Below are positions 5,828-16,676 of a DNA stretch of 27,108 nt, piece after piece. Numbering within the stretch: position 1 is the stretch's first letter; each line of letters opens with the position of its first letter. The position numbers and the translations under genes are program-made. Below the pieces are notes generated by a model. It was not told the origin of the DNA and did not search any database. It saw only the letters and a program-made list of their open reading frames with translations. This stretch comes from a virus. The stretch spans positions 1-27,108 of IMG/VR virus record IMGVR_UViG_3300031963_000785; one strand, given 5' to 3'.

Positions 5828-7108
5828 CTAAAAAATAATATTATTTTCTGTTTCATTGCTAGCAGAATCAATGGAAACATTTTGCTGCTGATTATTAGAA
5901 AAACCGGATATAAAACTGTAATGTTTGAAATAATTATTTATATATCTTGCTGCTGATTCAACTCTATTTATTTTTAATAATTCACCAGCTTCTCTAACTA
6001 TATTATTGAACTGTGTTTGTGTCAAGTTCTTGTTTGTCTCGTAATTTCTAAAAAAAGTGTATAGTCTTAGCCAAAATTGGTTTGGAAAATCATTTATAAA
6101 TTGTTGAAATGTTACAGCTGGACGAGAAAAGTATTTTACATTAGAACTACAGAGTTCTTTATGAGATTGTTCATAGATATTATTATTCTCAATAAAAAAA
6201 TTATAAGCTTTAAAAAATACAGTTTTTAATTCTAAAAGATCTTCTAAATATACTTTTTTATATCTAGTAGCAAACAATAAATCTAAACTGTCTATACCAT
6301 AATCATCTAAATAGACTTTTGTGGCTGGAGAATTTAAATTAGCATATAATCTCCAAGGAACATTTTCGTCTATACTAAAACCATGTCTTAAACAAGCTTC
6401 TGTAAATAAACTGAATCCCTGATCAGTAAAATAATTTTTAAATTTAATTTCATCATTATCCGCAGAATCAAATGCTACATCAAAAACTAATCCACTTGGA
6501 AAAGAAAAAAAGTTAAAACAAATTACTGTATGTGATTTTGTTATAGGTAAAATTTTAACTTTATTAGTTAAAAAATTAATATATTCATGAACAAAAGTTT
6601 TGTGATCTTTTACTTTTGAATTAAGAACTCCATTCTGTTGTAAATTAAGTTTAAATTCTCTAGAAAGATATTCGTGATGTAAATAAAATATATTATTAAA
6701 ATCTTCATATGATTTATATATTTTTAAATCTTTATACGGGGTTGATAAACGAATTTTTTGCGAAAGAAGACCATCATTTAACACTGTTTTCATATCAAAA
6801 AAAGCATCAGCAACAAAGTCTTGAATTTTTTGTTCTTGATTATTAAATGTACCAAAAGATTTAAAGTTTCTATCTACATTTATAGGTAATATAACATCAC
6901 CTTCATTGTCTATAAAGCCATATAAAGCGTTGTTTTTATATAAATTACCAAAAGGTATATTGTAAACAGAAGAGTCTTTAATATATCTTAAAGTTACTTG
7001 CTCATAAGCTGCTCTAGCTTCAAAAAGTATAAAAGTGCTTTGAGTACTATTTTTACTTAAAGCAGGAAAATTATTTTTTTCAAAAGTAAAATCTATTGGT
7101 CTAGACAT
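5828..7108 (-). CDS. Unknown protein at the end of the tail/baseplate cluster, probably virion-associated
   Basis: A 426-residue protein I do not recognise. It is rich in Asn, Phe and Tyr, with no signal peptide, membrane segment or catalytic motif that I can see. The middle contains HTVICFNFFSFPSGLVFDVAF and WRLYANLNSPATKVYLDDYG. The C-terminal third is helical (FQQFINDFPNQFWLRLYTFF) and ends in a low-complexity Asn/Gln/Ser tail. It sits 14 bp after the 1082-residue tail gene and 8 bp before the polymerase, so it is the boundary gene between virion and replication modules. Position favours a baseplate or internal virion protein. The ribosome site is weak, suggesting coupling to the upstream gene. 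A candidate polymerase promoter lies within its 3' part. Confidence 0.65.
   Translation of the reverse strand: MSRPIDFTFEKNNFPALSKNSTQSTFILFEARAAYEQVTLRYIKDSSVYNIPFGNLYKNNALYGFIDNEGDVILPINVDRNFKSFGTFNNQEQKIQDFVADAFFDMKTVLNDGLLSQKIRLSTPYKDLKIYKSYEDFNNIFYLHHEYLSREFKLNLQQNGVLNSKVKDHKTFVHEYINFLTNKVKILPITKSHTVICFNFFSFPSGLVFDVAFDSADNDEIKFKNYFTDQGFSLFTEACLRHGFSIDENVPWRLYANLNSPATKVYLDDYGIDSLDLLFATRYKKVYLEDLLELKTVFFKAYNFFIENNNIYEQSHKELCSSNVKYFSRPAVTFQQFINDFPNQFWLRLYTFFRNYETNKNLTQTQFNNIVREAGELLKINRVESAARYINNYFKHYSFISGFSNNQQQNVSIDSASNETENNIIF
5997..6025 (-). promoter_or_regulatory. Candidate sigma70-type promoter for the DNA polymerase
   Basis: TTGACA at 6025-6020, a 17-nt spacer and TATAGT at 6002-5997: perfect -35, five of six at -10. 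It is inside the upstream coding region, about 180 bp before the polymerase start. No terminator separates the virion genes from the polymerase, so this would give early expression independent of the late genes. Confidence 0.45.
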
Positions 7109-7122
7109 GATCTATTTTATCC

Positions 7123-10100
7123 CTAACAATTATTTGTATTAGAATTTGGAAGTCTGGTTTTTCCACCAACAACCCAAGCTTGATGATGGCAAGAAAGAAC
7201 TGTTTCATAGCTTGATGGATCAACTGAAGTATTTACTCTAATAACCATATAATAACCACCTATGCCAATATCATATTGAGCATTATTACCGAATATTACA
7301 GGATCGATATATATATAATCTCCCGGTCTAAATATATTATTACCAAATAATTTTATTTCTGAAGAGTACATTTGTCTCAATCTGTTTGTTACCTTGCCTC
7401 CCTCTTGTAATGCTCGCGCTTCAGCTGCCAAAGGAACATCCGTTTTAGAAAAACTGATTGATTTTATCAAACCGGCGTCTTTTCCAATTTGAAAATGATA
7501 TATACCAGAACTTACGTCTTTGTCAAAATCTCCATTATTAATTTGTATAATTTGTGGTGCCGATAAGGAATCAAAAATAAATAAATAATTTGCAAGAGCA
7601 CTATTAGTTATTTCTTGAGATACTGGTTTAGCAAGATTACTTTTTCTAGAAAAAGAAGCTAATTTTTCTTTATCTATTGCGCCAGAATAACTTGCGTCAT
7701 TAAAACGATTTAGTATCGGTTCTTGATTGATACTATTACAAGGTAATGAAAAACCAAGATGTGACATTCTTATTTTATTATTAATAGCTGCTTTTTTTCC
7801 AAAAACGCTTGGATTAATAGCAGGCTTTAATAAAAACTCTATTATGTCATTTATAAATTTTAATAAAGGATAATTAGCTCTTTTTGGTTTAATAACTTTT
7901 TGATAAAAGAAATCATCAAATGCATCCATAGATATTGGTATATCAGCAATATTAAGTATTACCTCTTCTACGTCTGCATCTACAGGAACCAAAAGATCAT
8001 TTTCTTCAGCAGAAATATTTGTTGGTATATTTATTGGTATCTCACCTAAAATTATTTTAGGTCTTTCACCTTTAGCCCTGATAGTTTGTAAACATTCTGC
8101 AGCGATATCTATAATATCTCCAAGATAAACATATTTTATAGTAACATATTCTGAATTGTCTTTCTCTAATTCTGCTTGTTCTCTTGAACCGGGAACAGAA
8201 TTAGATTGTTGAGGAGTAGATGAAAAACCAAGAACAGAACCTATAGATTTAACAGCAGTTATAAAACCACTTTCTTTTTTTTCTTTTTTTTGTTCTGGTG
8301 CATTAGTATTAGCAGTGGCAGAACCGTTTGGTAACTGTCTAACTGATATAGATTCATGATTTTTCAATCCAGCTTCTCTAATTTTTGCACCAGCTTGCAA
8401 TCTAAATTGTAGTGCTCCAGTTATAGGTTTACCTTCTTTATCAACTCCTACAGCACTATTATGAATACCTACTTTATATGCGTCTGGATAGCCAATATTA
8501 CCAACCATCTCATCAATACCAATTAATTTTCTAAATAACTCTTCTTGAGCTAAATTTTTTAAATTATCTAATTTTGTTTTTAAATCACCGGCTCTTTTAT
8601 ATATGTCATCATTAACTTTTTTTAAAGTTTCTTTATATATTGGTGGAGATAAATTTTGACATTTTATATTAGTAATTTTTGTTTGTCTTTCGGCATATAA
8701 ATCATCTATTTCTTTTTGAGCATTTACAATTTCAGGATCTTTTGAAGTTATAGAAAAAATATTTAAATTGTAATCAGATAATATTGAATCTATGGTTGCT
8801 TGATAATTAATTTTTAAAGTAACAGTACCATCTTCATTAAAACCGATATCATGAGTTACAGGAGATAAATAAAAAATAATTTTTGCATTTTTTATAGCTT
8901 TTATATATGCTCTAGCATCTTCTGGTTTAAAATTATTTTTTAATAAATTTTGATAAAAAATCTCTGAAGGCTCTGCGTAACCTATTTCTGCTTTAATTCT
9001 AAAATATTGATCATTAGCTAATAATTTACCACCATTTCTTATATATCTTGAAGCGCCATTGATTAAATCACTATAAGCAAAACTTCTATCTTTTAAACCA
9101 CTAGGTTCACCATCAATAAATCTTGTATCCTTTTCAGTAATAGGGATTGTTTTAGTAAGCAATGCAATATCTTGAAAAAACAGTTCTAAACTTGCTTCTA
9201 CGTGTGTGTTGGTTTCAGAAGGATTTGTGCCTTTATAAGCATATTGAAAAGATTTAATTCCACATCCATTCATTTTTCCTTCACCTTTTAAAATTTTGTC
9301 TATCGTATCCGAAACAAATAAGCTATTTTCATTTTTATCTTTATAATCAACTGGCAAATCATCAAATGGTATTCTCCAAGAATAAGATCTACCTATATTA
9401 GAATTTGAAGTCTTATATTCACCCATCAATTCAGGAAATAATACATAATATAATTTTATTGATGGTACCAAGCTGGATAAAATAACTGGTGGTATTTTAT
9501 CAAAAAATAATGAAGTTTCGGTAGTCTTAAACAGAGCATTAGTCAATTCTAAATGTCCAACTTGCTGTGTTCTCATAACGGCAAAATTATTATAAGACTT
9601 TTTTCTTCTATCAATGTTACCAAAGCTAACTCTTGCACTATCATTAAGTAATTTATCGGCCATTATCATCAAAGCTGCTTGATAACCTAAACGTAATTTA
9701 TTGGCTGCATCATCACCAGTAAGTTGTTCTTTAAGGGCCTCTTCTCTATCTTCTCTAGCTTTTTTTTGTTCTGGGGTTTCATCTAAAGAATTAGGAGCCG
9801 CGTTACTAACTACTGGTTGATTGTTGGGTGGCGTTGGAGGCGTACCGGGAACAACCGGGGGATTAATTGGTACATTACCGCCTGTAGATCTAAATCCTAA
9901 ATAGTTTTTTTGTTCTTCTGTTAAAGGTACATTTGCTGTTGCTGCTTGAAATATTTCATTTTGTTTTTTTTCAACCTTTACTTTACCTTCATTTATATCG
10001 ACTCTTGTGTTATTAGCAGCTTTTTGTAATCTAAAAATAATCTTTTCAGAAAGATCTATTTTTTCTTGATCATTTCCGCGAGCAAGAACTTCTAATTTTT

Positions 10101-10371
10101 CTTTTTCTGCTTTTATTTTTCGTTCAAAATTTTCTAATAATTTTTGATCAGCATCTAATTTTTTAAATTCCTGTGTTTCTCTTATTTGTTCATTAATTCT
10201 AACTCTAAGAGCACCTAAAGAATCAGCTGTAACCGCTGTAGAAGGTGTTTGTGGTTGTTCGGTTGGAGTTGTTGGAGGAGTATTTGCTTGTGGAGCAGCG
10301 TTCCCGCTACCGGGAGCAGGTTGTGGATTTGCATTTTGCGGTTGTTGAACGGGTTTTTTAGGTTCTGTCAC
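7123..10371 (-). CDS. Large tail/baseplate protein with Pro/Gln-rich N-terminus
   Basis: A 1082-residue protein starting at GTG 10371 behind GAGGTTAAAGC, 3 bp after the LysM gene. Residues 1-50 are a Pro/Gln/Asn/Thr-rich unstructured stretch. About 50-140 is a charged, coiled-coil-like region (KIKAEKEKLEVLARG), followed by another Pro-rich linker. The large middle has SLFFDKIPPVILSSLVPSIK and many mixed segments. The final part (FRPGDYIYIDPVIFG, GIGGYYMVIRV) looks like a compact beta domain of the kind found in baseplate or hub proteins. Its place after the tape measure, tube-like and LysM genes fits a baseplate hub or wedge component, but I see no lysozyme motif and cannot equate it with a specific T4 protein. 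Confidence 0.65.
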   Translation of the reverse strand: MTEPKKPVQQPQNANPQPAPGSGNAAPQANTPPTTPTEQPQTPSTAVTADSLGALRVRINEQIRETQEFKKLDADQKLLENFERKIKAEKEKLEVLARGNDQEKIDLSEKIIFRLQKAANNTRVDINEGKVKVEKKQNEIFQAATANVPLTEEQKNYLGFRSTGGNVPINPPVVPGTPPTPPNNQPVVSNAAPNSLDETPEQKKAREDREEALKEQLTGDDAANKLRLGYQAALMIMADKLLNDSARVSFGNIDRRKKSYNNFAVMRTQQVGHLELTNALFKTTETSLFFDKIPPVILSSLVPSIKLYYVLFPELMGEYKTSNSNIGRSYSWRIPFDDLPVDYKDKNENSLFVSDTIDKILKGEGKMNGCGIKSFQYAYKGTNPSETNTHVEASLELFFQDIALLTKTIPITEKDTRFIDGEPSGLKDRSFAYSDLINGASRYIRNGGKLLANDQYFRIKAEIGYAEPSEIFYQNLLKNNFKPEDARAYIKAIKNAKIIFYLSPVTHDIGFNEDGTVTLKINYQATIDSILSDYNLNIFSITSKDPEIVNAQKEIDDLYAERQTKITNIKCQNLSPPIYKETLKKVNDDIYKRAGDLKTKLDNLKNLAQEELFRKLIGIDEMVGNIGYPDAYKVGIHNSAVGVDKEGKPITGALQFRLQAGAKIREAGLKNHESISVRQLPNGSATANTNAPEQKKEKKESGFITAVKSIGSVLGFSSTPQQSNSVPGSREQAELEKDNSEYVTIKYVYLGDIIDIAAECLQTIRAKGERPKIILGEIPINIPTNISAEENDLLVPVDADVEEVILNIADIPISMDAFDDFFYQKVIKPKRANYPLLKFINDIIEFLLKPAINPSVFGKKAAINNKIRMSHLGFSLPCNSINQEPILNRFNDASYSGAIDKEKLASFSRKSNLAKPVSQEITNSALANYLFIFDSLSAPQIIQINNGDFDKDVSSGIYHFQIGKDAGLIKSISFSKTDVPLAAEARALQEGGKVTNRLRQMYSSEIKLFGNNIFRPGDYIYIDPVIFGNNAQYDIGIGGYYMVIRVNTSVDPSSYETVLSCHHQAWVVGGKTRLPNSNTNNC

Positions 10372-10716: not shown

Positions 10717-11712
10717 TTATGTTCCTGAATTGTTTAGATTTATTTCTTTATTTTGATTATTACCAGTTACAACGAAAATTTTAACTGGTTGTTTAGATTT
10801 AACTTTGTTATATAAATAATCTTGAGCTTTTTTAGAAAGTGCCAGTTCTTCTTTGCTAAGTTGGCCTGCTGTTTCTTTCCCAACCGTTAAAGCAAACGAA
10901 TTGCTATCTGGATTATAATCATATCTAGAAATATCTACTGGGTTTTGACCAGTTGCATTACCACCAAGATTTTGTTTGAGGGCTTGCTGTATGGCATTTT
11001 CGGGAGTTATTTGTGGCGTAGGAGATGCACCTCTTTGTGCTCTTGCTCTATTACTCTGTTTTTGTTTTTCTAGTTCTTTTAAGTAATCTCCTAGTGTTTT
11101 ATTTTGAGTTTTAAAGTTATCACTAGATTGATTTAGTAATGTGTTAATATCTGAATTGCTAATATATGGAAAAGACTTACCAGTTCTAGATTGATGCGCG
11201 GTATTTCTACCAAGTGGATGTTCGTGCAAAACCGTAAATGCAAGAGAGGCTTTAAATAATTTTGGATAAATTTCATCTTTTGAATTAAATACACCAACAG
11301 TAAAATCAGGAGTAAAAGTAAATCCAGAATCAAAATAGCATAATAAACCTTGACTTGGACTTGTTGTATTAACTAGCAAATTTGCATATTTTATTCTAAA
11401 TAATGGTGGCGAAGATATTGTAGCTAAACCTTGTCTAGCAGTGTCATTATAAACTGGATAAAGTCCAGAGATAAGTTTTGAAATATTATCAAAATTATTT
11501 TTTGCTTCAAGAAAATCAGAACTTGGTACATCTATATCCATAGTAACTTTTCTAGCGGTATTTTGAAAAGTAGCTATCGCATCCATTTTACCAAAAACAT
11601 TTTCTGTTTTCCATGTAGAAGAATATGAATCATTAAAGCTAGTAATATAAGCTTTAAAATTAAAACTTTCGTTTAAAGTAAAAGAATAAATTTGTATATT
11701 TTCAGTGCTCAT
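10717..11712 (-). CDS. Tail tube-like baseplate protein (tube initiator type, gp48/gp54 position)
   Basis: A 331-residue protein. The first 200 residues read like a tube-fold baseplate protein: SSTWKTENVFGKMDAIATFQ, TARKVTMDIDVP, ISGLYPVYNDTA, PPLFRIKYANLL, LLCYFDSGFTFTPDF and SLAFTVLHEHPLG. This strand pattern is typical of distal-tube and baseplate-cap proteins that link the tail tube to the hub. Residues 205-260 are a charged, Gln-rich linker, and the C-terminus is a short KQPVKIFVVTGN segment. It follows the tape measure by 15 bp and precedes the LysM protein, the usual neighbourhood for the T4 gp48/gp54 group. Exact orthology is not claimed. Confidence 0.65.
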   Translation of the reverse strand: MSTENIQIYSFTLNESFNFKAYITSFNDSYSSTWKTENVFGKMDAIATFQNTARKVTMDIDVPSSDFLEAKNNFDNISKLISGLYPVYNDTARQGLATISSPPLFRIKYANLLVNTTSPSQGLLCYFDSGFTFTPDFTVGVFNSKDEIYPKLFKASLAFTVLHEHPLGRNTAHQSRTGKSFPYISNSDINTLLNQSSDNFKTQNKTLGDYLKELEKQKQSNRARAQRGASPTPQITPENAIQQALKQNLGGNATGQNPVDISRYDYNPDSNSFALTVGKETAGQLSKEELALSKKAQDYLYNKVKSKQPVKIFVVTGNNQNKEINLNNSGT

Positions 11713-11727
11713 TGTTTTTATAACCTA

Positions 11728-14367
11728 TTATTCTAATTCCTTACTGCCTCTGTTTACAGAGTCTGCTACTGTTCTATCTTTTTTATCAATTTTTATATTT
11801 TTTGCTATCTCTTTACCATCTAAATATACATTCACTTGTATATTTTGCATACCGCTTTGAGATTTATTGACATTAGCTGCGCCTTGATTAGAAGCAGTTT
11901 GAACTGTTTCTTTAATAAATTCTTTTGATATATTTATTTTTTCTGTTGTAACTTTAGAAGCAGATTCAAGTACTTTAGAAACAGAATTTATTGTTTCAAC
12001 AAAGCTTCCAACGTCGCCAGTTGGCAACACCATACTTTGACTTATGGTGCTAATTTGTGCTGAAAAGTCCGATATATTCGTATTTGTTTTAAAACCTGCC
12101 ATAACTGTTGATAATTCTTTTAATCCTGATACTACTCTAGCAATATTTGTTGCCATAGTAACAAATACTTCATTAACATTTTGCATATGTACCATGACAC
12201 CGCCAATATCAGAAAAAAGGTCCATAGCTTCTTTTATATCTGCTTTTTTATCTGCCAATGTTCTTATAGCATCAACAAATTTTGCCATACCAGCTGCAGC
12301 TAAAAATATACCGGCTCCTAACAACATTGCTCCAGCACCTATCGCCAACAAAACTAAAGAAGCTACATAGCCGGGTATCGTTAAAGCAGCCATGCCAGCT
12401 ACAAATAATGCGAAAGTTGCAAGAAACCCAAGTAAATAACCAGAAACTTTAAAAGCTTGATCTCCTAAATTTTTAAATGCTTCTATCAATAATACTATAC
12501 CCTTTGCTGCAAGCATTATGCCAGCACCAATACCAAGCGCAGCAAGACCAATTGAAACCATTACAGCAGCCAACGCTAATAAAACTATAGTCGCTATTAC
12601 TAAACCAACGGCAACTTCTGGTGCAGCCGCAGCAGTACCAATAATCTTTAAACCTGCGGCAAAAGCTGTACTAACTGTTGTTATTGTTGCAGCCAAACCA
12701 GCGCTTGCAACAGTACTCTGACCTGCAAAAGTTAAAAGACTTGTACCAGCTGTAATTATTGGAGCTATTATAGAAGCAAAAGCTATTCCCATTGTTACAA
12801 CAACGACAACTATAGCAGCAATTACTCCTATTATACCTCCGCTCATATCATTTAATTCGCTGAATGCGACAACCATCTTTTTTACAAATTCTATGGCCGG
12901 TTTTAACCCTATAACAATTTTTGAAAAAACATTTTCTAATTGTTTACCTATTTCAGCTGCTTGTGTCATAGCTTCATTTAACTTTGCTTGAGTGGCTTCA
13001 GTCTTCATCTGTTCAATACGCATATCGCTAGTAGATGAATTAAAGTATCTAGCAGCATCACCAGCGTTTTTAAAACCTAGTGTTTGTGCGATACTTTTTT
13101 GTGTAGCGCGATCTAAATCTTCAAATTGTTTTCCAGATAAATCAAAACCTTGCTTTATCAAATCTATTCTTTCTTCTTCGGATGCTTGTACAAGTTCAAG
13201 AGAATTTAGATAGTTACCTCCTAACATAGAATTTAAAACTGCGGTTTTTTGTGCAGCGTTTTCAAAAGTGTCAAAACCTTCTGCTATAGATACTAAGTCA
13301 TTTATTGACATACCAAGAGATTTTGCTTGCTTTTCTAAGCTATAAAATACATCAAGCGCTCTTTTACCGTTTGCAGCTAATAGTGGCATAACAGAAGAAA
13401 AATCTTTAATCATGGCTGCTGGTGCCATGCCGATTCCCTGTGCTGTTTTAGCCATCGTTTCTAATGTTGCAGATGCATCTTGACCAGCAATATTTAAAGT
13501 CTTAGTAAAGATATCAAAAACAGCACCAGATTCTGCAGCACTAACATTTAAATTCTCAAATTTAGCAGCGGTAGCCGATAATTGACTTTGTACTTGCGGT
13601 GTTTGATTAGTAAAACTAGCCATACTACCTACTAAAGCACCAGTAGATTTAGTTAAATCAGCGATTCCAATGCCATATTGACTTAAATTCTGAACAGCAC
13701 TGGCGTCTACCATGTCTTGCGCCAACATACCAGTTGTTCTAGCAAATTGTTCATTTGCACTAACTATACTAAGTAATTGACCTTTAATATTTGAATATAT
13801 ACCAGATAAAGTAAATGTTTTAACAATTTGACTGTTTAAAATATCATTTACAAATGAACGTCCAACTTGAGAAATTTCTTCTTGAGCTTTTTTTTGCAAC
13901 AAAAGATTATCAAGATTTTTTTTAAGTTCTTTTAATTTATTTTTTTCTGTTTCTACTTGATTATTAGCATTTTTTATTATTTCTTCTTGCGCTACTATTT
14001 CTTCACTTGTAGAAGCATATCCTTGATCTTCTAATTCTTTTTTTCTTTTCAATGCCGCTTCCATAATCGGCATTTGTTCACTAGAAATTTTTGTTAAATT
14101 TCCTAATTGCTCATTAATTTTGTTATTTGTTTCTGCTATTTGCTGTTTTGTTTTAGCAAAAGCAGAAATAGTTAACTCTAACTCTCCATTTATATTACGA
14201 TATAAACCAGCAGTATTACCAAGAGATTGATTAATTTTTTCATTTTCAGATAAATTTAATGAATTTAATTCAAGAATCTCTTTAATAATTTTTTTTGTTT
14301 TTTCTGCTTGCTCATTTGAAGCAGCTGCAGCATTTGGATCTACGGTGGTTGGAGTCGTTGGAGCCAT
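11728..14367 (-). CDS. Tail tape measure protein
   Basis: An 879-residue protein with the usual tape-measure layout. A short Ala/Thr/Pro start precedes a long charged coiled-coil region (about 20-170, for example KNKLKELKKNLDNLLLQK). Ala/Gly/Ser-rich helical sequence follows, then strongly hydrophobic segments at about 510-545, 585-625 and 640-695, which may insert into the host membrane during DNA delivery. By the usual 0.15 nm per residue the tail would be about 130 nm long. It follows the frameshifted chaperone-type gene, as tape measures typically do. The ribosome site is CAGGTAA. A strong terminator sits between the two, so its transcript is attenuated or starts separately, in keeping with the few copies needed per virion. 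Confidence 0.87.
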   Translation of the reverse strand: MAPTTPTTVDPNAAAASNEQAEKTKKIIKEILELNSLNLSENEKINQSLGNTAGLYRNINGELELTISAFAKTKQQIAETNNKINEQLGNLTKISSEQMPIMEAALKRKKELEDQGYASTSEEIVAQEEIIKNANNQVETEKNKLKELKKNLDNLLLQKKAQEEISQVGRSFVNDILNSQIVKTFTLSGIYSNIKGQLLSIVSANEQFARTTGMLAQDMVDASAVQNLSQYGIGIADLTKSTGALVGSMASFTNQTPQVQSQLSATAAKFENLNVSAAESGAVFDIFTKTLNIAGQDASATLETMAKTAQGIGMAPAAMIKDFSSVMPLLAANGKRALDVFYSLEKQAKSLGMSINDLVSIAEGFDTFENAAQKTAVLNSMLGGNYLNSLELVQASEEERIDLIKQGFDLSGKQFEDLDRATQKSIAQTLGFKNAGDAARYFNSSTSDMRIEQMKTEATQAKLNEAMTQAAEIGKQLENVFSKIVIGLKPAIEFVKKMVVAFSELNDMSGGIIGVIAAIVVVVVTMGIAFASIIAPIITAGTSLLTFAGQSTVASAGLAATITTVSTAFAAGLKIIGTAAAAPEVAVGLVIATIVLLALAAVMVSIGLAALGIGAGIMLAAKGIVLLIEAFKNLGDQAFKVSGYLLGFLATFALFVAGMAALTIPGYVASLVLLAIGAGAMLLGAGIFLAAAGMAKFVDAIRTLADKKADIKEAMDLFSDIGGVMVHMQNVNEVFVTMATNIARVVSGLKELSTVMAGFKTNTNISDFSAQISTISQSMVLPTGDVGSFVETINSVSKVLESASKVTTEKINISKEFIKETVQTASNQGAANVNKSQSGMQNIQVNVYLDGKEIAKNIKIDKKDRTVADSVNRGSKELE

Positions 14368-14401: not shown

Positions 14402-14431
14402 AAAAAAAAAGTGAGCAGCATAGCTGCTCAC
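14402..14431 (-). terminator. Intrinsic terminator between the tail-chaperone region and tape measure
   Basis: Perfect 9-bp stem (14411-14419 with 14423-14431, GTGAGCAGC arm) and a 3-nt loop, followed on the minus strand by nine T (14410 to 14402). It lies 4 bp after the frameshift extension stop and 35 bp before the tape measure ATG. Confidence 0.92.
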
Positions 14432-14435
14432 CTAG

Positions 14436-14625
14436 TTATTTTCTTGAAGCTTTTTTTATTTCATCCGATTCTTTTTTAAGTTGATCGGTTAGTTTTTCAA
14501 CAAACCACTTTCTTAAACCAACTGGTAAATTGTAGCTTTCAAAAAGACTAAAGCCGCCATAATATTTAAGATAAAAAAATTGTTCATAAATATTTTCTTG
14601 GTATTCACTACTTAAACCAAAAAAA
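14436..14625 (-). CDS. Frameshift extension of the T4_baseplate-family protein (gp51-like tail assembly chaperone)
   Basis: An open frame of 60 codons after the slip site, GLSSEYQENIYEQFFYLKYY then GGFSLFESYNLPVGLRKWFV and a charged end (KKESDEIKKASRK), with no ATG, GTG, TTG or CTG anywhere in it and a stop just upstream. It can only be read as a continuation of the 288-residue protein. The T7 run at 14625-14619 (GAC-TTT-TTT-TGG) lets the ribosome move +1 or -2 into this frame, three codons before the zero-frame stop; a -1 shift would hit TAA at once. The fused product would have 345 or 346 residues. Position directly upstream of the tape measure is exactly where G/GT-type frameshifted tail assembly chaperones lie. 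The sequence also resembles the small gp51 family of T4-like phages, though that comparison is from memory. Confidence 0.75.
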
Positions 14626-15474
14626 GTCTGCTGTCAGCGGAACCTCCATCTCGGTGGAATATTCACATTTAGAACAAGTAAATGTATGATTTAAATCAAC
14701 ATTTGGAATAGTTTTTTGATATGTATTTCTTAGAAATTTAGCATCAACAGCAGGCATAGCATCAATTGCTTTATTTATTATATCTCTATCAATAAGCCCT
14801 TGAATACTAACGATCATTAGCTTTAATTGATCTAATAGAATGCTATCGTTAGTGTTATTTAGTTTCTTTTTATTTTCTGATATTCTTATCAATTCTTTTT
14901 CATCATAACCATTTAATGCTCTGCAGACAACATTCCATTTTGTATTTGGAAGATCAAAAGAAAAAGTTCCATTATCACTAATGTTTGCAACAACAGCTGT
15001 TTCTTCAGAAATTATTTTTTCTAGTTTTTCATTTAAATCAAATGAGTTTTTAACTTTTTCATAACACGATGGGCACGTAACTTGAGTTACATATATATTT
15101 CCATAAGCAGATATTCTTGCAGCTACAAGAATAGCATTTCTATCTTCTGTAGTTAAAGTATCTGAATTAATATTTTTATCTAAAACTAGTGATTGTATAA
15201 GTTTATCTAATACAACACCTTTTTTTAACAAATTACGAGAAGAAAGTATGTCTTCCTCCTTAGCTGTCATCTGTTTTATTTCTATACTATCCTTTCTATG
15301 CAATGGATGATGTTGAGGATAAAACATACCCTTTGAAGGTAGCAAAACAACCTCTGTTGGATTCATAAATTCCAATGGAGCTATTTTGTGTCCTTCAGAA
15401 TTAATTGATTGTTGTAGGGGATTTGAATCTTGTTTTAATGGATTAGTACCCAATCTGTCTTCATTATTTCTCAT
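14608..15474 (-). CDS. T4_baseplate-family (gp26-like) tail assembly protein, upstream frame of a frameshifted pair
   Basis: A 288-residue protein with the conserved LLPSKGMFYPQHHPLHR, IEIKQMTAKEEDILSSRNLL, KKGVVLDKLIQ and DRNAILVAARISAYG blocks of the T4 base-plate protein family (gp26 group). Two CxxC pairs (CPSC at 134-137 and CSKC at 267-270) look like a zinc ribbon split by an insertion. The protein ends in TADFFWFK, where a T7 run gives access to the downstream extension, so it is probably made in a short and a long form. The ATG at 15474 follows TAGGT. It sits between the tail tubes and the tape measure, the standard place of tail assembly chaperones. Confidence 0.82.
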   Translation of the reverse strand: MRNNEDRLGTNPLKQDSNPLQQSINSEGHKIAPLEFMNPTEVVLLPSKGMFYPQHHPLHRKDSIEIKQMTAKEEDILSSRNLLKKGVVLDKLIQSLVLDKNINSDTLTTEDRNAILVAARISAYGNIYVTQVTCPSCYEKVKNSFDLNEKLEKIISEETAVVANISDNGTFSFDLPNTKWNVVCRALNGYDEKELIRISENKKKLNNTNDSILLDQLKLMIVSIQGLIDRDIINKAIDAMPAVDAKFLRNTYQKTIPNVDLNHTFTCSKCEYSTEMEVPLTADFFWFK

Positions 15475-15494: not shown

Positions 15495-16052
15495 TTATAT
15501 ATCTTTATTAACTACAGTAGCATAATCATATGTTATTGTTAATGATACATCTACGAATTCATCACTAGCATAATCTAGTTTACCATAATCTATGTTAGAA
15601 ATAAAAGGATTAATTAAAGACCAAGTTTCTAAAATATTACCATTTTCATCAATTTGTATTAATTCTAATTTAGAACCAAAAGGTAAAGATGAAAAAGTTT
15701 TTGATAAACCGGGATTTAATATTTCTGATGTTTCTCCAGCCTGTGGTTGATTATTGGGCTGATAACCTCCAACAGCAATTATTAAGTTTTGTAATACACT
15801 AGATAGAGATAAATTACCCTTTCTACTAACCACAGAAGCAAATTTAACGTTTATTGGTTTCCACTTTAAAATACCGGGATATTTATGAACGTTATTTAAT
15901 AATGTATGCTCGGTAACATTAATATCAAAGGATGGTTTATCGCATGATTTAAGCGCAAATTGCGATGAATCTAAACCATTATCAGTAAAATTAATGTACC
16001 ACCTATACTGTCTTAATGGTTCAGGTAAAAAACTATTATTCCAAAAAGACAT
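15495..16052 (-). CDS. 19: Tail tube protein, second paralogue (gp19-like)
   Basis: A 185-residue member of the T4 gp19 tail tube family. Shared landmarks with its upstream neighbour are SFWNNS, EPLRQYRWYINF, the YPGILKWKPINV block, LELIQIDENGN, and the C-terminal DYGKLDYASDEFVDVSLTITYDYA. The overall length fits a tube subunit. It starts 12 bp after the first paralogue with almost no ribosome site, suggesting coupling and perhaps lower yield. It may be a minor tube or tube-end protein, or the two may co-assemble. Confidence 0.87.
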   Translation of the reverse strand: MSFWNNSFLPEPLRQYRWYINFTDNGLDSSQFALKSCDKPSFDINVTEHTLLNNVHKYPGILKWKPINVKFASVVSRKGNLSLSSVLQNLIIAVGGYQPNNQPQAGETSEILNPGLSKTFSSLPFGSKLELIQIDENGNILETWSLINPFISNIDYGKLDYASDEFVDVSLTITYDYATVVNKDI

Positions 16053-16064
16053 ATTTAACCATTA

Positions 16065-16676
16065 TTAGTTTGATGTAGGTTCGGCTACTTCATCTAAACT
16101 AGCGCCGGGAGAAGTGCCATTACCATCTGCGGAGCTTTGTTTTAATTGAGCGCTATCATATCTAATGGTACATTGAATATCCACTATTTCTTCGCTTGCA
16201 TAGTCAAGAGCACCAAACTGTACGCTAGTAAAGAATGGTTTTTTTAGAAGCCATTCTTCAATTGGCTTACCATCAGAGCTAATCTGAATTATGGATATAG
16301 TATCACCAAGCGCTTTATTAAATTTTGGTTTACTAATGGTTCTATCCTCGCTATAGCTTGCTGGATATTGATAACCTGCGCCCAATAAAACATTATATAA
16401 AACATCATCTACAGATGGCTTAAGAGTAGCAGCAATTGTCATATTAATGCTTTCCCACTCAAGACGACCGGGATAGTAATAAAAATGATTAAGGTATTTA
16501 TGAGTTATTTCTGCAACTTTTGCTTTTGGTTTGTCAACCTTTTTTAATGCATATCTAACACTATCAATTGAACTGTTATTAGATGTAGATACTGGACCAC
16601 CGGCAGTATTGCCACCGAATACCATATACCATCTAAACTGTCTTAAAGGTTCTGCACCTGTATTCCAAAAACCCAT
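16065..16676 (-). CDS. 19: Tail tube protein, first paralogue (gp19-like)
   Basis: A 203-residue gp19-family tube protein, the likely main tube subunit because it directly follows the sheath gene and has a strong AGGAGA ribosome site. Landmarks are GFWNTGAEPLRQFRWYMVFG, YYYPGRLEWESINMTIAA, ISIIQISSDGKPIEEWLLKK and FGALDYASEEIVDIQCTIRY. Compared with the second paralogue it has an extra loop (GGPVSTSNNSS) after the first strand and a longer, disordered C-terminal tail (SSADGNGTSPGAS). Confidence 0.9.
   Translation of the reverse strand: MGFWNTGAEPLRQFRWYMVFGGNTAGGPVSTSNNSSIDSVRYALKKVDKPKAKVAEITHKYLNHFYYYPGRLEWESINMTIAATLKPSVDDVLYNVLLGAGYQYPASYSEDRTISKPKFNKALGDTISIIQISSDGKPIEEWLLKKPFFTSVQFGALDYASEEIVDIQCTIRYDSAQLKQSSADGNGTSPGASLDEVAEPTSN

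Follow-up and report, generated by a model that had tools for sequence, protein, structure and literature searches.

A stretch of viral DNA of 27,108 nucleotides (IMG/VR record IMGVR_UViG_3300031963_000785, hereafter the window) carries on its minus strand a gene for a 288-residue protein, at 14608..15474, whose 3' end overlaps an open frame with no possible start codon. Does this frame encode protein and, if so, how do ribosomes reach it? An earlier note, made from the letters alone, had suggested that the frame is the hidden second half of a frameshifted tail assembly chaperone, and that the gp26-like and gp51-like baseplate factors are one chaperone system in this phage. Our analysis indicates that, very probably, one gene here gives rise to a short and a long tail assembly chaperone through programmed +1 frameshifting, in the manner of lambda G/GT.

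The 288-residue protein belongs to the T4_baseplate family PF12322 (E 1e-15, 58.4 bits, above the curated cut-off of 24.5) and also matches phrog_150, 'baseplate hub' (E 1.3e-14). It would be the gp26-like short form (TAC-N). The PF12322 alignment runs to the final position of the profile, at residue 286, and thus the end of the gene is the end of the domain. In the 0 frame this end reads GAC TTT TTT TGG TTT AAG TAG, with the minus-strand stop at 14610-14608. The putative frameshift site GAC TTT TTT TGG (14617..14628) contains seven consecutive T (14625-14619, same strand), and three further codons follow its second TTT before the stop is reached. Behind a TGA at 14636-14634, the +1 frame contains no stop from 14633 to a TAA at 14438-14436. 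The 60 codons that follow the T run (GLSSEY...ASRK) occupy 14436..14618 together with the TAA and encode GLSSEYQENIYEQFFYLKYYGGFSLFESYNLPVGLRKWFVEKLTDQLKKESDEIKKASRK; ATG, GTG and TTG are absent among the +1-frame codons in the window. Coordinates and codons thus agree with the start-less frame of 60 codons, behind a T run three codons before the gene's stop, which the earlier note had described. Joined to the gene, this extension would give a gp51-like long form (TAC-NC) of 345 residues. A +1 or a -2 shift enters the frame and a -1 shift does not, as had been stated; the -1 frame contains stops, and the window has no -1-type extension. An intrinsic terminator with an 11-pair stem lies just 3' of the extension stop (14402..14433, minus strand; hairpin with its T-run at 14433-14409), which bears out the remark that the extension ends at a terminator.

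Is the extension translated? In single-base shuffles of the stretch, 62 open codons at the junction occurred in 130 of 20,000 cases. Therefore the length of the +1 frame alone is only moderately unlikely, and conservation is the decisive evidence. We searched IMG/VR with peptide patterns from the 60 extension residues, leaving the slip site out of the query. The patterns matched 428 stretches, 408 of which encode a relative; the best 80 of the 408 were kept. Of the 94 loci from the first searches, 93 had the extension in the +1 frame relative to the gene (the remaining locus, L007, was cut off; some loci share a contig). Likewise, a scan of junctions by an out-of-frame pattern returned at least 120 stretches, and in 80 of the 80 that were taken as loci the extension was present and in +1. 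Altogether 173 loci with a +1 extension were read. Three of these, L159 among them, ran off the contig, and dropping duplicates left 123 distinct junctions out of 170.

In every one of the 123 distinct relatives the +1 frame continues for 53 codons or more without a stop, whereas the other two frames contain 514 and 638 stops in total. Across the extension dN/dS is 0.077, and third positions take a 65% share of the substitutions; these numbers come from pairs of related sequences and so are not independent. The extension frame is coding. The earlier note had asked for a comparison of relatives to see whether the T run and the frame are conserved or the two frames fused: both frame and slip site turned out to be conserved. 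A search of viral_contigs for an in-frame ADFFGL fusion gave a single match, which has stops around it and looks unrelated; junctions with other residues escape this pattern. A conserved coding frame that was found fused in no environmental relative, and that always lies +1 to a conserved slippery site, fits programmed frameshifting. The cases that the note had named as fatal to its proposal were not seen, the frame showing no decay; in some relatives, though, a codon inside the frame could serve as a start. Many extensions of one environmental clade, named TGG-CCT (for example at L062, L087 and L120), end in a SQTLTxxNQPxxP-like tail, possibly a binding motif; the close relatives of the window are without such a tail.

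The slip site itself is conserved. TTT TGG occurs in 123 of 123 distinct relatives, including 62 of 62 in a subset not selected on the site, so that TGG would be the A-site codon in all of them. The first Phe codon is TTT in 116 relatives and TTC in 7. The codon before the slip site is GAC in 121 of 123, compared with 30% of Asp codons elsewhere in these genes. Named phages vary the site: AAC TTT TTT TGG in Mel-JY01, AGC TTT CTT TGG in Flavobacterium phage immuto, AAC TTT CTA in LR756508, GAG TTT TTT AGT in Listeria phage LIS04 and GAA TTC TTT CGT in Streptococcus phage SagM-GXN1. Re-pairing of a P-site tRNA one base forward is kept throughout these variants (UUU on UUU, UUU on UUC, CUU on UUU); in LIS04 it works if the slip falls on the first TTT.

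We suggest the following course of translation. Normal translation would yield the 288-residue short form. At UUU_UGG, with TGG in the A site, part of the ribosomes would slip forward by one base, tRNA-Phe moving from UUU onto the overlapping UUU. GGU would then be read, followed by the rest of the 60 codons, to give the 345-residue long form. By analogy with lambda G/GT, coating of the tape measure protein would fall to the short form, and recruitment of the tail tube protein to the minor long form with its extension.

Other routes into the extension have to be weighed against this one. A programmed -2 frameshift at the same site enters the same frame as +1, adds one extra Phe at the junction, and would let the A-site tRNA re-pair with TTT on the run of seven T; phage Mu uses a -2 frameshift. 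The natural variants argue against it here. TTC TTT T (7 of 123), CTT T (immuto) and TTT C (LR756508, SagM-GXN1) keep the +1 re-pairing and spoil that for -2, and therefore +1 is favoured. After a -2 slip the A-site tRNA would have to re-pair on TCT in the TTC TTT T forms, on TTC from CTT in immuto and on ACT in LR756508, and the preceding tRNA would land on ACT, AAT, AGT, GCT or CGA. The earlier note had left the choice between +1 and -2 to be decided; from these variants we infer that the direction is +1, and a -2 shift now appears improbable. The same variants bear on transcriptional slippage, by which RNA polymerase would produce a mixed mRNA pool, with the frames fused in some molecules. 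Such a process would be favoured by the seven consecutive T that 116 of 123 relatives have. Efficient transcriptional slippage needs long runs, however, and TTCTTTT (the only form in 7 of 123), TTTCTTT (immuto) and TTTC (LR756508) are too short, yet the extension is present in all of these. Short-run variants that keep the extension speak against transcriptional slippage, to which we give very little weight.

An equally small chance attaches to the extension being a separate small protein, made from a non-standard start or by reinitiation after the TAG. The -1 version of the extension is annotated in public records as a separate small gene, and in 57 of 123 relatives the ninth codon, counted from the first Phe, is ATG, GTG or TTG, so that internal initiation is conceivable there. 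But the frame in the window has none of these codons, 25 of 123 relatives have no start codon in frame up to residue 20, the conserved FFGL(S/T/N) at the beginning of the extension precedes the ninth codon, and in T4 gp51 the tail is fused to the same domain. A sequencing error, or decay of the gene by a one-base insertion, could also have brought the frames out of register: homopolymer runs are error-prone, and six T instead of seven would put both frames into phase. Yet the out-of-frame state is common to the 123 distinct relatives, the TTCTTTT forms included, it recurs in the isolate genomes of Mel-JY01 and immuto, and a related ADFFGL fusion was not found in viral_contigs. In our judgement conservation refutes error or decay. 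Programmed +1 frameshifting thus remains by far the best account of the junction.

Does the protein look like a chaperone? We modelled the 288-residue protein from an alignment of 73 sequences (mean pLDDT 87.9); three of 15 fusions were left out of the fold alignment. Foldseek against BFVD ranked an uncharacterised phage protein first (E 2.8e-18), followed by baseplate hub subunits and hub assembly proteins. Among PDB entries Foldseek had no significant match: the best E was 1.3, and the HK97 tail assembly chaperone 2ob9 appeared at E 2.3. In a second structural comparison with the PDB 2ob9 came first (Z 5.4, rmsd 5.6, 87 residues aligned; next chain 2.5), a Z that falls in the tool's range that may mean only a common arrangement. 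Sequence searches of the PDB did not yield a chain that could be assigned with conviction to the gp26/gp51 family; the best match, at E 0.017, was not from a phage. Two CxxC pairs are invariant in the 73 sequences and likely form a zinc ribbon. A review of T4 lists gp26 and gp51 as hub assembly chaperones and also cites genetic work that places gp26 inside the hub.

The gene lies directly before the tape measure gene, as the earlier note had supposed: the next gene, at 11728..14367 on the minus strand, encodes 879 residues and matches the tape measure family phrog_167 (E 6.8e-10). Its product is the presumed client of the chaperone. We chose 12 relatives, and in all 12 the longest ORF downstream encodes a homologue of the tape measure protein in the window (E at most 1e-24). 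It lies 51-104 nt from the chaperone gene in nine relatives and 393-930 nt in three. Of 10 downstream ORFs scanned in relatives, only 1 matches the tape measure PHROG directly. Just upstream on the minus strand are genes for two tail tube proteins (15495-16052 and 16065-16676; both phrog_4542, E 7.7e-22 and 2.3e-21), presumed partners of the long form. These adjacent genes are of one family and likely arose by tandem duplication.

Further minus-strand genes of the window include a UvdE-type UV-damage endonuclease at 714-1691 (PF03851, E 1.8e-51). A 404-residue protein at 4605-5819 matches DNA polymerase family A over residues 311-376 only and is short for such a polymerase. Three large proteins near the tail genes (7123-10371, 5828-7108 and 10717-11712) had no Pfam or PHROG match at the cut-offs used.

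Sequences upstream of the slip site are conserved as well. A Shine-Dalgarno-like GGAGGT at 14642..14647 (minus strand) starts 22 nt before the first TTT. GGAGG occurs within 30 nt upstream in 113 of 123 relatives, against 0.02 expected, and GGAGGT stands at -22 from the first TTT in 108 of 123. Mel-JY01 and immuto have no GGAGGT at -22 and carry G-rich stretches further upstream. For Glu, GAG is used in 114 of 115 (32% elsewhere). Met, Leu or Val mostly precedes this Glu, and 36 of 44 of the Leu and Val codons there have G as their last base (26% and 15% elsewhere). The Pro codon is CCG in 106 of 122 (13% elsewhere) and the Ala codon GCG in 73 of 114 (14% elsewhere), 9 of the 123 sites being other than Ala. 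Thus bases, not only residues, seem to be under selection upstream of the junction. A possible role for GGAGGT is that of frameshift stimulator, which we consider uncertain.

Between GGAGGT and the T run, CCGC and GCGG can pair into a small hairpin. In the window the corresponding block is CCG CTG ACA GCA GAC (14626..14640, minus strand); codon choice and folding point to a hairpin there in many relatives, and in the window itself it is weak. The native sequences fold at a mean of -4.0 kcal/mol against -0.28 kcal/mol for synonymous versions, and in 86 of 123 relatives fewer than 5% of the synonymous versions are as stable. By synonymous resampling the native mean is -4.7 against -0.27 kcal/mol in the TGG-CCT clade (89 sequences) and -2.1 against -0.30 kcal/mol in the window's own type (34 sequences), where the support is weaker. 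Covariation in the hairpin is not above that of shuffles (1 pair with a double change against 0.8 expected; 75.1% of cells paired against 75.2% when shuffled). When the partner strand is slid, pairing drops to 15-49%. The pair between columns 11 and 21 is absent in 42 of 97 distinct stretches, that of the window included, and an alternative, longer fold is possible in which GGAGGU pairs with ACUUUU. We regard the 5' hairpin as a lead. Downstream of the slip site, samples of 40 sequences revealed no RNA structure (mean z between -0.6 and 0.03).

How does this junction compare with those of other members of the family? Leaving T4 and Erwinia phage FBB1 aside, we read it in 22 further phage records with the gene. 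In 16 of the 22 the extension lies in the -1 frame. The site is T TTT TTC or TTT TTT in 12 of these 16 (P-SSM2, P-RSM4, S-RIM8, HTVC008M, phiM7, AS-zj, Mendera, Desulfovibrio phage 7757, Astolliot, IG49, Paride and Atu_ph07) and weaker in K393, YC, Menlow and Vi01. Weak sites (CTT TTC, ATT TTC, GCT TTC) accompany the -1 extension in the Vibrio and Ackermannviridae relatives (L107, L109, L111 and L112). Five of the 22 records are +1, namely Mel-JY01, immuto, LR756508, LIS04 and SagM-GXN1. In LR756511 (L238, 2180-2420) the 0-frame gene continues for about 20 codons beyond the FFF motif and an extension-like peptide lies in the -1 frame; neither direction was assigned to it. The gp26 genes of T4 and FBB1 have no such extension, and the next frame there runs into gp25. 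At the nucleotide level the region had no match among the phage records searched.

In public records the -1 extension is annotated as a separate small gene, 'baseplate hub assembly catalyst' (L101 2223-2396, L102 2223-2405, L103 2262-2399, L104 2214-2375 and L100 16366-16503). Such a gene is probably the second half of the gp26-type gene. For annotation this means that small 'gp51' or hypothetical ORFs after a 'gp26' are probably the second half of one chaperone.

T4 gp26 and gp51 are paralogues. Both match PF12322, gp51 over residues 1-201 of 249. Among 21 records searched with PF12322, 19 match. T4 has two such genes, and one each was found in Syn9, HTVC008M, P-SSM2, phiM7, AS-zj, Mendera, K393, Vi01, LR756508 and LIS04, as well as in the window and seven IMG/VR records (in two of these the frame was matched in two pieces, and further copies may be hidden by fragmentation). 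PF12322 misses Mel-JY01 and immuto, which phrog_150 detects.

Is the +1 extension related to the tail of gp51? We compared by hhalign the +1 extensions (58 distinct environmental sequences and four named phages), the -1 extensions (14 sequences) and the gp51 tails of T4 and FBB1. The +1 set matched the -1 set at 94.5%, and at 84.6% with the four named +1 phages removed. The -1 set matched the gp51 tails at 85.9%; reversed controls stayed at or below 0.9%. Directly compared, the +1 set and the T4/FBB1 gp51 tails gave 0.1% or less, so the link runs through the -1 set. PHROG searches agreed with this in part: two families, phrog_634, 'baseplate hub assembly catalyst' (2e-29), and phrog_150 in its final part (1e-8), were hit by the P-SSM2 extension, and T4 gp51 belongs with these two families as well. 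Five +1 extensions that were scanned had no match to phrog_634 or phrog_150; the PHROG matches of +1 extensions are weak, the best (E 0.001) being to phrog_20255, of unknown function. The proposal that the gp26-like and gp51-like factors are one chaperone system holds as well: the two T4 proteins are paralogues, and gp51 has a tail tied to the extension in the window, though only via the -1 relatives.

In a tree of the shared domain, built without the junction residues and including 11 environmental rows, the +1 rows cluster apart from the -1 rows and two changes are needed; a single +1 clade, although the tree does not show it, is not rejected (p-AU 0.363). T4 gp26 and gp51 adjoin each other (93/72, moderate support) inside the -1 part. 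This topology suggests one switch of direction, together with a duplication in the T4 line that replaced frameshifting, with long branches making the details unsure. We can imagine, with considerable doubt, a fuller course of events: the T4-type chaperone gene would have switched between -1 and +1 with the logic of the proteins kept; in the large environmental clade GGAGGU would pair with 16S rRNA while the CCGC/GCGG hairpin shortens the effective spacing as in RF2, pushing the ribosome onto UUU_UGG; and T4 would have lost the frameshift by duplication into gp26 and gp51.

The T4-type chaperone system is already known; what looks new is the +1 form, its spread in environmental phages, the switch of direction at one locus and the conserved 5' element. 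Vladimirov, Gautam and Davidson reportedly dealt with the tail assembly chaperones of T4-like phages in 2022 (Virology 566:9), and we infer that the two genes concerned are gp26 (short) and gp51 (long). Some T4-like phages have a short gene and a fused longer gene, according to a passage in PMC10885494, and polyT stretches are mentioned as known -1 signals in TAC-N genes of T4-like phages in a passage of PMC12846349. Among the literature matches listed, a +1 version of the T4-type chaperone family did not appear; most subscription papers were outside this scope. A section of a 2016 review describes G-T frameshifting as widely conserved, with T4 as the exception (PMC5009743). Members of the T4 family appear to frameshift either way near the same protein motif, T4 being that review's exception. 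Because -1, +1 and duplicated versions occur at a single orthologous locus, the family offers a natural experiment in the evolution of frameshift signals, and phages with named hosts exist in which the direction can be tested.

With T4 gp26/gp51 the window shares the family (PF12322/phrog_150), the logic of a short and a long protein and an extension related through the -1 relatives, but T4 uses two genes whereas the window has one, with a predicted +1 frameshift. The -1 chaperones of T4 type in cyanophages, Ackermannviridae and others are the same gene with an extension homologous by profile; they differ in a -1 slip, at T TTT TTC or TTT TTT in 12 of the 16 records read, whereas the slip predicted for the window goes in the +1 direction at UUU_UGG. 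In lambda G/GT, a section of the same review explains, one gene yields by frameshifting a short and a long chaperone that bind the tape measure protein (PMC5009743). As there, the window has two overlapping frames that a predicted slip would join; the conserved slippery site lies where the first of them ends, and the tape measure gene comes next. Lambda shifts by -1 whereas the window would shift by +1, and the 288-residue model resembles the HK97 counterpart, gp13, only weakly. For the archaeal virus HSTV-2, a passage of the review considers it very likely that the G-T system works by +1 (PMC5009743). That virus would share the +1 tail chaperone frameshift and, unlike the phage of the window, is an archaeal myovirus. 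In RF2 (prfB), a U-rich P-site codon slips by +1; the A site there holds a stop codon, and a Shine-Dalgarno-like element precedes the slip codon by about 3 nt. A forward slip on U-rich codons and an upstream Shine-Dalgarno-like element are features that the window would share with RF2, immuto even having CUU_U, but the A site would hold UGG, which is not a stop, and the distance from the start of GGAGGT to the first TTT is 22 nt, which sets this site apart from the RF2 type.
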